64,000 bases of DNA. It comes from an uncultured Oscillibacter sp. Its GTDB lineage: Bacteria > Bacillota > Clostridia > Oscillospirales > Oscillospiraceae. Location of the stretch: NCBI GenBank assembly GCA_947365245.1, contig CANAWG010000001.1, positions 1 through 64,000 on the forward strand, read 5' to 3'. Under the pieces are notes generated by a model. It was given only the letters and a program-made list of their open reading frames with translations, was not told where the DNA came from and made no database searches. This document shows, piece after piece, positions 26,324 to 33,286 of this stretch (position 1 is its first letter; each line of letters opens with the position of its first letter). The position numbers and the translations under genes are program-made.

Positions 26324-26464
26324 ACACCAGTGAGGTCCGCTCACTGGTGTGTGCGCCCCAGGGGCGCACAGGTCAAGGTATTTTCGGCAGGCGCATGTCC
26401 CGCCGAAAATGATTGAAAAATCTTTCTCCGCCTCCGGCGGAGAAACCGGGAACCTGCGGTTCCC
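26324..26464. repeat. Dispersed multi-hairpin intergenic element, copy A
   Basis: Five consecutive hairpins: CACCAGTGA/TCACTGGTG, GTGCGCCCC/GGGGCGCAC (26351-26369), ATTTTCGGC/GCCGAAAAT (26380-26410), TTTCTCCGCC/GGCGGAGAAA (26423-26445) and GGGAACC/GGTTCCC. Linkers match copies B and C. A second TCCTCCGCC-type hairpin follows at 26521-26545. No coding potential is seen. Confidence 0.75.
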
Positions 26465-26619
26465 TGGCCCCTCCCTTTCGCGCCCTTGGGGCGCTGGGAC
26501 GGGGATTGTCTCTGTAAAATCTTCCTCCGCCTCCGGCGGAGGAATCGGGGAGGCGCTTCTCCCCTGATCCCTTTTCCGCAACACCATACCATCATCTGAC
26601 AATGAAAGGAGCTGCTGTT

Positions 26620-28011: not shown

Positions 28012-28092
28012 CCATCATAAAAGAGGGGCGGCGGGTTGTCAATCGGAATCTTCCAAAAAGGGAAAAAGCGGTTGCTTTTCCCCGCCTGGGGC
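28012..28092 (+). repeat. Upstream region of pncB, parent copy of a duplication
   Basis: These 81 bases recur at 31208-31288 with one mismatch. The segment lies between coaW and pncB and includes the putative pncB promoter region, with TTATAATG just after it. The distant copy is joined directly to the last 42 bases of pncB, showing a past duplication followed by deletion. Confidence 0.9.
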
Positions 28093-28182: not shown

Positions 28183-29631
28183 ATGAAAACGGAAGAGAAT
28201 CTGAACATGACCATGCTCTGCGACTTCTACGAGCTGACCATGGGCAACGGCTATTTCCAGGTGGGCTTTCAGGATCGGATCACCTACTTTGACGTCTTCT
28301 TCCGGGATGTTCCGGACGGGGGCGGCTTCGCCATCTGCGCGGGTCTGGAGCAGGTGATCGACTACATTGAAAACCTGCGCTTCGGGGAGGCGGACATCGC
28401 CTATCTCCGGGGACGGGGGCTGTTTTCCCCGGAATTTCTGGAATTTTTGCGCAGCTTCCGCTTCACCGGCGACATCTGGGCCGTACCGGAGGGGACGCCC
28501 ATCTTCCCCGGGGAGCCCATTTTGACAGTCCGGGCTCCCGCCATCCAGGCCCAGCTGATCGAGACGTTCCTCCTGCTGACGCTGAACCACCAGAGTCTCA
28601 TCGCCACCAAGGCCAACCGCGTCGTCCGGGCGGCCCGGGGGCGCACGGTGCTGGAGTTCGGCTCCCGCCGGGCCCAGGGCACCGACGCCGCCATCACCGG
28701 CGCCCGGGCGGCCTATATCGGCGGCTGTAAGGGCACCGCCTGCACCATCTCCGACCAGCTGTACGGCGTTCCCGCCGGCGGCACCATGGCCCACTCCTGG
28801 GTGCAGATGTTCGACAGCCAGTACGAGGCTTTCAAGGCATACTGCGAGACCTACCCCACCAACGCGACGCTGCTGGTGGACACCTACAATGTGCTCAAAT
28901 CCGGCGTGCCGGACGCCATCCGGGCTTTCAACGAGGTCCTGCGGCCCCGGGGAATCACCCAGTGCGGCATCCGGCTGGACTCCGGCGACATCGCCTACCT
29001 CAGCCGGGAGGCCCGGCGGATGCTGGACGAGGCCGGCTGGACCGGGTGCCAAATCTCCGCCTCCAACTCCCTGGACGAGCACATCATCCGCGGGCTGCTG
29101 CTGCAGGGCGCCAAGATCGACCTCTTCGGCGTGGGCGAGCGGATGATTACCGCCCGCAGCGAGCCGGTGTTCGGCGGGGTGTACAAGCTCTGCGCCGTTG
29201 AAGACGACCGGGGGAATATCATTCCCAAGATCAAGGTCAGCGAGAATGTGGGCAAGATCACCAACCCCCACTTCAAAAAGGTCTGCCGCATCTTCGACAA
29301 CGAAACCGGCAAGGCGGAGGCGGACTACATCACCGTCTGGGACGAGGCGGTGGACGAGTCCCAGCCCCTGGAGCTGTTCGATCCCCAGGCCACCTGGAAG
29401 CGCAAGACCTACACGGGCTTCACCGCAAAGCCCCTGCTGCGCCCGGTGTTCCAGGCGGGGAAGCTGGTCTATGACCGCCCCTCCCTGCCGGAGATCCAGC
29501 GCTACTGCCTGGAGCAGGTGGACACCCTCTGGGACGAGGTCAAGCGCTTTGAGAACCCCCACACCTACTACGTGGACCTGAGCCAGAGGCTGTGGGACAT
29601 CAAGCAGGACCTCCTGCGGGAGAAGCGCTAA
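28183..29631 (+). CDS. pncB: Nicotinate phosphoribosyltransferase
   Basis: The 482-residue protein has MLCDFYELTMGNGYF at the N terminus, the catalytic loop EFGSRRAQGTDAA near residue 160, and GIRLDSGDIAYLSR near residue 265, all typical of NAPRTase. It turns nicotinate and PRPP into nicotinate mononucleotide for NAD salvage, at the cost of ATP. ATG 28183 follows ACGGAGG. The copy is intact, but its natural terminator has been separated from it: the pncB 3' end plus terminator reappears at 31288-31376, 1.7 kb away, after an accessory insert. Confidence 0.95.
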   Translation: MKTEENLNMTMLCDFYELTMGNGYFQVGFQDRITYFDVFFRDVPDGGGFAICAGLEQVIDYIENLRFGEADIAYLRGRGLFSPEFLEFLRSFRFTGDIWAVPEGTPIFPGEPILTVRAPAIQAQLIETFLLLTLNHQSLIATKANRVVRAARGRTVLEFGSRRAQGTDAAITGARAAYIGGCKGTACTISDQLYGVPAGGTMAHSWVQMFDSQYEAFKAYCETYPTNATLLVDTYNVLKSGVPDAIRAFNEVLRPRGITQCGIRLDSGDIAYLSREARRMLDEAGWTGCQISASNSLDEHIIRGLLLQGAKIDLFGVGERMITARSEPVFGGVYKLCAVEDDRGNIIPKIKVSENVGKITNPHFKKVCRIFDNETGKAEADYITVWDEAVDESQPLELFDPQATWKRKTYTGFTAKPLLRPVFQAGKLVYDRPSLPEIQRYCLEQVDTLWDEVKRFENPHTYYVDLSQRLWDIKQDLLREKR

Positions 29632-29665
29632 ATGTAGTATCTCCACTTCCGCCGCACCACAACAT

Positions 29666-30124
29666 ACGCACCCCGCCGCCCGCAGGCGGCGGAACCCAGC
29701 CCCGCCCGCAGGCGGAGCCGCGCGCAAGCCAAGCGAAGCCCCGCGCGCGGCGGAGGCCCCGGCGGCACCAGGCCGAAGCCGCCGCCAGCGAGGCCCGCCG
29801 AGGGGGGCCCGCCGCCCCGCGACGGCGGGAGCGAGGGCGGCGGGGGGCTGAACCGGCCCCCGCGACCACCGCAAGCGGGCCGACCAGACGCCGGGGCCGG
29901 GGGGCCAGCGGCTGACGGGCCGCTTGCGGCACGGCACCCGCGAACAGGGGCGGGCCCGCAGGCCCGGCCGGCCCCCACCGCAGAGCCCCGAGCAAGCGAA
30001 GCGGCGCAGGGGCAGGCGGCGAGGAGCGGGGGCCAGGGCGGAGCCAGCCGCGGAAGCGGGGGCGGAGACAGCGGCCCCCCGACGAACCGCCCGACGAACG
30101 GAAGAGCCCCGGCAACCACCCCCG
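29666..30124. other. GC-rich tract almost free of T on the plus strand
   Basis: From 29666 to 30124 (459 bases) the plus strand has only four T, at 29849, 29913, 29924 and 29925. The longest T-free runs are 183 and 199 bases. The 120 bases at 29701-29820 are 87% G+C. Many small hairpins with A-rich loops occur, such as CCGCAAGCGG. Six-frame translations give only low-complexity Arg, Pro, Gly and Ala tracts. It lies between pncB and an 88-residue minus-strand gene. Nothing recognisable is encoded. Confidence 0.85.
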
Positions 30125-30178
30125 TCCCGCCCGCAGGCGCCCCACCTCCGCCGCGCGGCCGTGAGTGGCCATTCACGC

Positions 30179-30445
30179 TCAAAGGCTCATGTAGTCCCGC
30201 CGCCGCGAGGCCAGGTATACCGAGATCATGTACCGCAAAAGCCCGTAGACCGTGATGCCCTGGGCGCGGCACTCCGCCTTGAGCCGTTCCATCTCCTCCA
30301 CTCTGAGGCGGCATGAGGCCGTGCAGATATGGTTTTTGTCCCACCGGGCTTGCCGCTTCCGGTCCAGCTTCCAGGCCCGGGCCGCCTCCAGCGCTGCGTC
30401 CTGGGCGGACGCCCTCCAGGTTTCTTGTGATTGTACTGTCTGCAT
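30179..30445 (-). CDS. Small helical DNA-binding-like protein, phage/plasmid type
   Basis: The 88-residue protein begins MQTVQSQETWRASAQD. Its C-terminal half, CRLRVEEMERLKAECRAQGI, followed by TVYGLLRYMISVYLASRR, resembles ribbon-helix-helix or mobilisation-type proteins. ATG 30445 follows GAGAGGAGAC. It is downstream of the HNH gene on the same strand, with 82 bases between. It could be a remnant of a phage packaging or plasmid module. Family placement is tentative. Confidence 0.6.
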   Translation of the reverse strand: MQTVQSQETWRASAQDAALEAARAWKLDRKRQARWDKNHICTASCRLRVEEMERLKAECRAQGITVYGLLRYMISVYLASRRRDYMSL

Positions 30446-30527
30446 GTTGTGTCTCCTCTCTCATCCTACCACAGAATATGGTGTACTGTCTACTTCCGGA
30501 TTTCCTCCGGATTGCGGGAGGGGGGAA

Positions 30528-30878
30528 TCATCCCCCCCACCCACTGTCCTGCTCCAGGGATATCAGCTTCTCCGCCCAGGGATTCCAGGCGAGGCCGTAT
30601 ACCTCCGCGTAGTAGTCTGCCAGGTACTCCACAACGGCGAGTTCCACCTCCTCTTTCGACATCCACTCCGGCCAGTCCGGGAACTTCGTCCCATGGGCCA
30701 TGGCGTGGCACCGCCAGCAGAGGGTGACCAGGTTGTGCTTGTAGCTGGTCCCGCCCTCTCCCCTGGGCACTGCGTGGTGAATCTGGAGCCCGTCTGCGGA
30801 ATCGCACAGGACACAGCGGTAATGGTCCCTCCGGTAGACTGCTTTCCTCGTCTCGTTGCTGATGTTCGCGCTTATCAT
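30528..30878 (-). CDS. HNH endonuclease (phage-type)
   Basis: The 116-residue protein has a zinc-stabilised HNH fold: CVLCDSADGLQIHHAVPRGE, then HNLVTLCWRCHAMAH, with CxxC, HH, N and CxxC-H in order. ATG 30878 follows AAAAGGAGGACGG. Small HNH nucleases of this size often lie next to terminase genes in tailed phages, where they assist packaging. No terminase is present, so it looks like a stranded fragment. It has no RuvC domain, so it is not an IscB-type nuclease. Confidence 0.85.
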   Translation of the reverse strand: MISANISNETRKAVYRRDHYRCVLCDSADGLQIHHAVPRGEGGTSYKHNLVTLCWRCHAMAHGTKFPDWPEWMSKEEVELAVVEYLADYYAEVYGLAWNPWAEKLISLEQDSGWGG

Positions 30879-31207
30879 AGTGCCGTCCTCCTTTTCAAAG
30901 ATACCTCCCAGGCACTACGGCGGTCAAGGACGCGGAGCGCCGCCCGCAGGCGGACGCCCGGAGGGCGGTCCTTGAGGGCCGTGGTATCATGCACCGACAA
31001 TGAAAAGGAGGGCGGCACTTCCCCCGGTAGGACGCCCCAGGGGGGCTGCAAGGGGGGCCGGAGCCCCCCTGAGCTTCGACCCGGGAAGCAGAATAGAACG
31101 CATGTTCTCGCAGTATTAGGGGCTCTTTTGCGTACTTTTGGGGCACTATCTGCGGTTCCACCCCGGTTCCAGTGTTTTCTGCCGCGTGAGCGGCACCCAG
31201 GATTTGG
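30879..31207. promoter_or_regulatory. Non-coding stretch with a GAAC-N4-GTTC box
   Basis: This 329-base interval has no gene. It includes a GC-rich hairpin set (31030-31080) and GAACGCATGTTC at 31096-31107, which fits the Gram-positive LexA (SOS) half-site pattern. It is far (about 220 bases) from the HNH start. Given the phage-like neighbours it could be a phage promoter relic. LexA control is only a suggestion. Confidence 0.35.
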
Positions 31208-31329
31208 CCATCATAAAAGAGGGGCGGCGGGTTGTCAATCGGAATCTTCCAAAAAGGGAAAAACCGGTTGCTTTTCCCCGCCTGGGGCTGTGGGACATCA
31301 AGCAGGACCTCCTGCGGGAGAAGCGCTGA
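31208..31329 (+). pseudogene. Internally deleted duplicate of the pncB region
   Basis: Bases 31208-31288 equal 28012-28092 (one mismatch), and 31288-31329 equal 29590-29631 (TAA changed to TGA). Thus the pncB upstream segment is fused to the last 14 codons of pncB, and 1.5 kb (28093-29589) is missing. The junction lies in GGGGC/GAGGC microhomology. The native terminator of pncB follows. It encodes nothing functional. Confidence 0.9.
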
Positions 31330-31338
31330 GCCGCCCCG

Positions 31339-31376
31339 CCGCGGCCCCGCCGAAAGCGGGGCCGCGGCGTTTTTTC
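31339..31376 (+). terminator. Ancestral pncB terminator
   Basis: CCGCGGCCCCGC pairs with GCGGGGCCGCGG (12 bp) around CGAAA, then CGTTTTTT. It now follows the deleted pncB relic. Confidence 0.9.
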
Positions 31377-31399
31377 CAGGATTGTTTACAGAAAAACGG

Positions 31400-31428
31400 T
31401 TGCGTACCGGGCTGTTTTTTTGTATAAT
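31400..31428 (+). promoter_or_regulatory. Promoter of cardiolipin synthase gene
   Basis: TTGCGT (31400-31405) and TATAAT (31423-31428) are 17 bases apart, 44 bases upstream of the coding start. Confidence 0.8.
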
Positions 31429-33078: not shown

Positions 33079-33212
33079 CCACCAGTCTGCGGACTGGTGT
33101 GTGCGCCCCGGGGGCGCACGGATCGGGGTATTTTCGGCAGGCGCATGTCCTGCCGAAAATGATTCCAATTTCTTTCTCCGCCGGCGGCGGAGAAACCGGG
33201 GGCCGCGCCCCC
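33079..33212. repeat. Dispersed multi-hairpin intergenic element, copy B
   Basis: The same order of hairpins as copy A: ACCAGTC/GGACTGGT, GTGCGCCCC/GGGGCGCAC (33101-33119), ATTTTCGGCAGG/CCTGCCGAAAAT (33130-33160), TTTCTCCGCC/GGCGGAGAAA (33172-33194) and GGGGGC/GCCCCC. Copy A has CCCGCCGAAAAT where B has CCTGCCGAAAAT. Linkers such as GGTATTTTCGGC and GAAAATGATT are shared. Confidence 0.75.
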
Positions 33213-33286
33213 TGGCCCCCCTGGCTCTCTCTGGCCCGCTTAGGCCCGTGCCTTTCGATCTCTTTTTCAACCAGGAGAACACGCTT

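Follow-up and report, generated by a model that had tools for sequence, protein, structure and literature searches.

Behind pncB, the window (the whole 64-kb stretch of DNA that was analysed) carries a 1.66-kb insertion, 29630-31285, bordered by a 42-bp exact direct repeat (Table 1). Two genes are read from its minus strand, one for a small HNH endonuclease and one for a putative ribbon-helix-helix-like protein, and a non-coding tail lies directly downstream of both. The tract 29666-30124, which makes up most of this tail, had been singled out in a sequence-only reading for its lack of T. The same reading correctly placed it beside pncB, in a patch that also holds an HNH nuclease gene.

Table 1. 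Features of the insertion behind pncB and of its borders (positions in the window).
Feature	Position	Strand	Remark
Left copy of the 42-bp exact direct repeat (pncB 3' end)	29588-29629		Both copies identical; read as target-site duplication
Non-coding tail, contains tract 29666-30124	29630-30178	-	A 3.3% on the minus (HNH-sense) strand
88-aa ribbon-helix-helix-like protein (tentative)	30179-30445	-	Own sequence without Pfam match
116-aa HNH endonuclease	30528-30878	-	PF01844, E 7.7e-9, above cut-off; activity predicted from sequence
Long hairpin in HNH leader, pairs ribosome-binding site	30879-31019	-	Arms 30879-30897 / 31001-31019, 95% complementary
Small hairpin near element 5' end	31179-31198	-	Just inside the extra 5' piece
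Extra piece at 5' junction	31208-31288	-	80/81 match to region upstream of pncB, 28012-28092
Right copy of the 42-bp exact direct repeat	31286-31327		Identical to left copy

On the plus strand, the 459 bases of the tract comprise 74 A, 189 C, 192 G and 4 T, the latter exactly at the positions counted earlier (29849, 29913, 29924 and 29925). Its two runs without T, 199 and 183 bases long, were likewise recovered and exceed all others in the window, the next measuring 81 bases. The tract has the lowest T count of any 459-base stretch in the window (mean 91 T), and the longest A-free or T-free run elsewhere in the same genome amounted to 123 bases in a sample of 400 kb, i.e., 20 stretches or about one seventh of the genome. 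Open frames within the tract are uninformative because a T-free strand allows no stop codon on either strand. A protein encoded in the tract was rejected, as none of its six frames, the two longest minus-strand open reading frames included, gave a Pfam match, in support of the earlier statement that it holds no convincing protein. An Rfam search, also suggested at that stage, did not yield a credible match over the tract (window stretch, E up to 1). A match to BTH_s1 RNA (E 8.3e-5) was rejected; it is situated outside the tract at 31316-31401 and reaches 31 bits vs. a gathering score of 74.

That the patch is an insertion follows from four loci of close relatives, L035-L038, that have the same gene order without it; only 141-164 bp separate pncB from cls there, and the spacer holds a hairpin that was read by eye. 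Of 80 pncB loci from named genomes, 18 also contain cls or the upstream kinase gene, and L035-L038 are the first four listed of these. As sequence homologues of the tract itself, only short GC-rich fragments were found (longest 163 nt at 71%). In another genome, some 3.2 kb of other inserted DNA is present between pncB and cls (L041, 2350-5518), without the HNH element; it was dismissed as a copy of the same element, since it lacks an internal 20-bp repeat and its open frames show nothing of the element. Elsewhere in the window, two intergenic regions, 26349-26567 and 33101-33250, give alike translated strings that start with approximately MCAPGAH and end near SFSAGGGET, which suggests a dispersed repeat.

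With regard to coding capacity, the six frames of the window element and of its counterparts in genomes G331, G548 and G710 contained HNH as their only Pfam domain with E no higher than 0.001; besides HNH models, these four elements gave one sub-threshold RHH_9 match, and no match to a transposase, integrase or reverse transcriptase. The ribbon-helix-helix fold of the 88-aa protein is tentative: a profile of nine relatives weakly matches ParG (E 0.0096), the relative from G710 matches RHH_9 below cut-off (E 0.0067), and in Foldseek the sole matches, to RelB/DinJ, were of low probability and did not reach E 0.001. Within the genus, its gene is present in eight of nine HNH carriers vs. 1 of 77 non-carriers. 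The window HNH protein has no match at E 1e-8 in phage and plasmid collections, and a plasmid or phage origin was rejected on these grounds; viral contigs contain relatives with at most 50% identity among the 80 matches listed.

Homologues of the HNH protein were searched with the single protein and with two alignments, A1 and A2, at cut-offs of E 1e-20 or 1e-22. The genome samples overlapped. Nine of the 86 genomes from the genus had a homologue, always as a single copy; for the family the counts were 14 of 300 and 19 of 399 (two samples), for the order 6 of 394, three of these outside the family, and for the class 1 of 391, which is the window genome itself. The element occurs chiefly in a single family, taken to be Oscillospiraceae on the basis of the named pncB relatives.

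Altogether, 31 loci in 29 genomes were examined. At 24 of them, the HNH gene lies between the two copies of an exact direct repeat that measures 30 bp or longer and is located within 2.5 kb, vs. 1 of 581 random anchors placed in chromosomal stretches; this automatic count includes loci whose longest repeat differs from the presumed target duplication (the window, G017, the G403 tandem pair and the G205 pair). Five of the seven loci without a repeat lie at the end of a contig (G675, G556, G601, G284 and G784), while G016 and G763 are less near to one. Among loci collected once the pattern was known, repeats were present in four of four and then in three of five (G784 being cut by the contig end and G763 having none). 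Tabulated singly, 21 elements have exact repeats of 31-93 bp and interiors of 1019-2168 bp, the G403 tandem pair being counted as one element with an interior of 3015 bp; in G497 and G653, one repeat copy is at the contig end. The HNH subfamily is found again at different places in the chromosome, in most cases flanked by exact direct repeats 31-93 bp long. The repeat sequences vary by site and are unrelated even in the related elements of G487 and G548, as read side by side; the 93-bp repeat of G331 looks like the end of what we take from its translation to be rplL, and that of G017 falls within a 6S RNA match when coordinates are compared by hand. Terminal inverted repeats are absent, the longest exact inverted match between the first and last 60 nt being 4-7 nt in 17 elements. 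At locus L155 (G403:C5), two tandem elements 1540 bp apart have three copies of a 65-bp repeat in common.

The 5' ends show further features. The HNH leader of the window (30860-31040) folds with a z of -2.67, and relatives have a similar leader layout when read by eye; small hairpins with a stem of at least 5 that start 9-14 nt from the 5' end are found in 10 of the 21 tabulated elements. The extra 81-bp piece in the window adjoins the right repeat copy on the element side and brings along a promoter-like site (31238-31210) directed into the element; a third copy was not found in the genome. At the 5' junction in G548, the copied extra DNA consists of 31 nt of the element's own HNH gene. In both cases the copied DNA resembles the outcome of template switching in repair or copying.

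The tails were compared across loci by scanning 150-nt stretches downstream of the HNH gene on its sense strand. Stretches with at most one A occur at 12 of 30 loci and stretches with at most one T at none, with 0 of 581 controls for both bases. At a limit of five, the numbers rise to 19 loci for A and one for T (controls, 5 and 1 of 581), and at a limit of nine to 23 and 2 (controls, 30 and 15 of 581), so that the A poverty of the tails is graded and its loosest cut is also reached by 30 of the 581 controls. G246 is T-poor instead of A-poor in the scan. In a comparison of 16 tails, trimmed to 450 nt where longer and excluding G246, A is rarer than T on the HNH-sense strand in 15, the exception being G722. 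On that strand the tail is short of A, most markedly so in the window among 17 tails. The comparisons of 16 and 17 tails, the fourfold-site counts and the tail folding cover loci with tabulated repeats, 14 loci then lacking these falling outside.

Folding is a less uniform trait. Compared with dinucleotide shuffles (60 each), these 16 tails fold better on both strands, with a mean z of -2.5 on the sense and -3.2 on the antisense strand; on the other hand, the whole 549-nt tail of the window folds as RNA no better than its own shuffles (z -0.53, 23 of 100 as good). In a set of 138 short hairpins, TGCG is the loop seen most often (14 cases); it reads CGCA on the opposite strand. A hairpin with a G-run loop was detected at 10 of 31 loci on the sense strand and at none on the antisense strand, with a descriptor derived from these same elements that gave 15 hits in 2.56 Mb of control sequence and hits in 13 of 1550 shuffled regions; the scan found no such hairpin in the window tail. 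MAFFT alignments of the hairpin misplaced its stems, and the count of stems pairing with their own partners (66 of 66) was discarded as no test, the stems having been chosen because they pair; what can be used is the descriptor scan. The robust common trait is therefore composition, while a common structure exists for a subset only.

Long A-free runs also occur in another context. Within the genus, a contig of 3.37 kb (L115, G013:C44) has a 77-base overlap between its ends and is probably a plasmid-like circle of 3.3 kb; it contains an A-free run of 514 bases (231-744) in addition to frames that we take, from their motifs, to be replication-protein-like and recombinase-like. Because this run is longer than those of the tract and no HNH gene was seen on the circle, A-poor composition is not specific to the HNH element. 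A further A-poor tract (L120, G024:C119, 8981-9527) is located inside a 100-kb contig and adjoins frames that presumably correspond to the replication-protein and recombinase genes of L115.

The sequence-only reading had offered two origins for the missing base. Strand-specific change of T to C, by deamination or mutagenic reverse transcription, is disfavoured because it predicts an excess of C over G on the plus strand, where the two are equal. Loss of A from the whole element is disfavoured as well, because synonymous sites of the HNH genes keep A: the fourfold sites of 16 elements (G246 excluded) have 77 A and 60 T. One-sided base change, whether by deamination or by A-mutagenic copying, was rejected as an element-wide process on these two grounds; a mutational process acting on the tail alone is possible. 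The other origin, a nucleic acid selected to lack one base on one strand, is compatible with the data; the rarity of A relative to T in nearly all tails and the confinement of the G-run-loop hairpin to the sense strand fit with this, whereas the window tail itself has neither this hairpin nor a fold better than its shuffles. The earlier interpretation as a whole is thus partly supported.

Several known systems share single properties with the element. Among NCBIfam models the window HNH is nearest to the IscB HNH (E 1.7e-13), IscB is also nearest among PDB sequences, and by PDB fold it ranks second after CBASS Cap5. Like IscB/HEARO (OMEGA) systems, the element is probably mobile and has structured non-coding sequence beside the gene. 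In contrast to IscB, the window HNH scores 50.4 bits vs. a model cut-off of 175, and the HNH proteins read here (17, of 98-119 aa) are too short for a RuvC domain, which the Pfam search in six frames of the four elements did not find either; no Rfam match to HEARO/omega RNA was obtained in the window (E up to 1) or in five other loci (E up to 0.1). For IS1634/IS1549, long, variable direct repeats of 8-514 bp on insertion are reported (PMC2266710), a precedent for the 31-93 bp in 21 elements here. Unlike those insertion sequences, which possess a DDE transposase as well as terminal inverted repeats, the elements showed no such transposase (four scanned) and no such repeats (17 compared). With free-standing HNH homing endonucleases, the element has in common that cutting is probably done by a small HNH nuclease; no long target duplications are known from homing, and the window HNH differs in having no phage or plasmid match at the threshold given above. 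Group II introns and other retroelements are similar insofar as the maturase HNH domain 6me0 matches the window HNH (E 1.6e-6) and target-primed insertion could give variable repeats, but a reverse transcriptase was neither found in the four elements nor associated with them in the genomes. The element family could not be matched to a known one, and a published description of such an element was not found in the literature searched, largely at the abstract level.

We consider it probable that the tract is the tail of a small mobile HNH element, that the repeats are target duplications made by offset nicks and that the base loss is selected. The element would be a low-copy one, with interiors of about 1.0-2.2 kb, and we infer that its direct repeats are target-site duplications. 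In the proposed mechanism, the HNH nuclease would make two offset nicks at the target, perhaps assisted by the ribbon-helix-helix-like protein and the terminal hairpins; the element would be joined at the nicks and the single-stranded arms filled in, leaving direct repeats, and two offset nicks with fill-in would lead to duplications of variable length. The tail would form a run of G-C stems whose loops have T on one strand, hence A on its complement, and would be needed in single-stranded form, as DNA or RNA, in mobilisation or maintenance, the one-sided base loss then stemming from selection and not from mutational chemistry. Whether these elements constitute a new class of transposable elements, in which a lone IscB-type HNH nuclease, aided by a ribbon-helix-helix-like protein and by a structured tail that is nearly devoid of A and acts as single-stranded DNA or RNA, generates 31-93 bp duplications without transposase, integrase or reverse transcriptase, is a more doubtful matter, and we put this forward tentatively.

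Other origins have to be weighed against this mobile HNH element. If a site-specific (tyrosine) recombinase acting in trans mobilised an integrative element, with the repeats as att sites at gene ends, this would fit the single copy per genome within the genus and the fact that, in 6 of 21 elements, a predicted open frame of at least 100 codons has its end within the repeat. Relatives should, however, have the same att site if the element carried one, yet their repeats are unrelated, and no integrase domain was present in six frames of the four elements, which makes this explanation unlikely. Target-primed retrotransposition, with a reverse transcriptase supplied in trans whose errors purged A from the RNA strand, would account for the variable repeats as well as for the copied extra pieces at the 5' junctions in the window and G548. 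We regard it as very unlikely, given that RVT_1 (PF00078) is found in 10 of 21 carriers vs. 9 of 18 non-carriers, that no reverse transcriptase was found in the 99% complete genome G331, and that A persists at synonymous HNH sites.

It remains to consider chance, a fault of assembly or a mutational process with a local bias that is independent of the element. All searched genomes are drafts, none of the 17 tails is as A-poor as that of the window, and the plasmid-like circle has its 514-base run as well; against this, independent genomes show A poverty on the same strand in the corresponding position vs. 0 of 581 controls, and repeat lengths of 31-93 bp do not correspond to one assembler word length. 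Such an origin is in our view very unlikely as well.

If the mobile HNH element is real, an oddity of composition would mark a family of small mobile elements for which no description was found. A stand-alone, IscB-related HNH protein combined with long target duplications would be relevant to the question of how HNH nucleases contributed to mobility outside RNA-guided systems, and the element would represent a compact insertion system that is open to testing. The A-free tails, finally, raise the question of what selects a long nucleic acid without one base on one strand.
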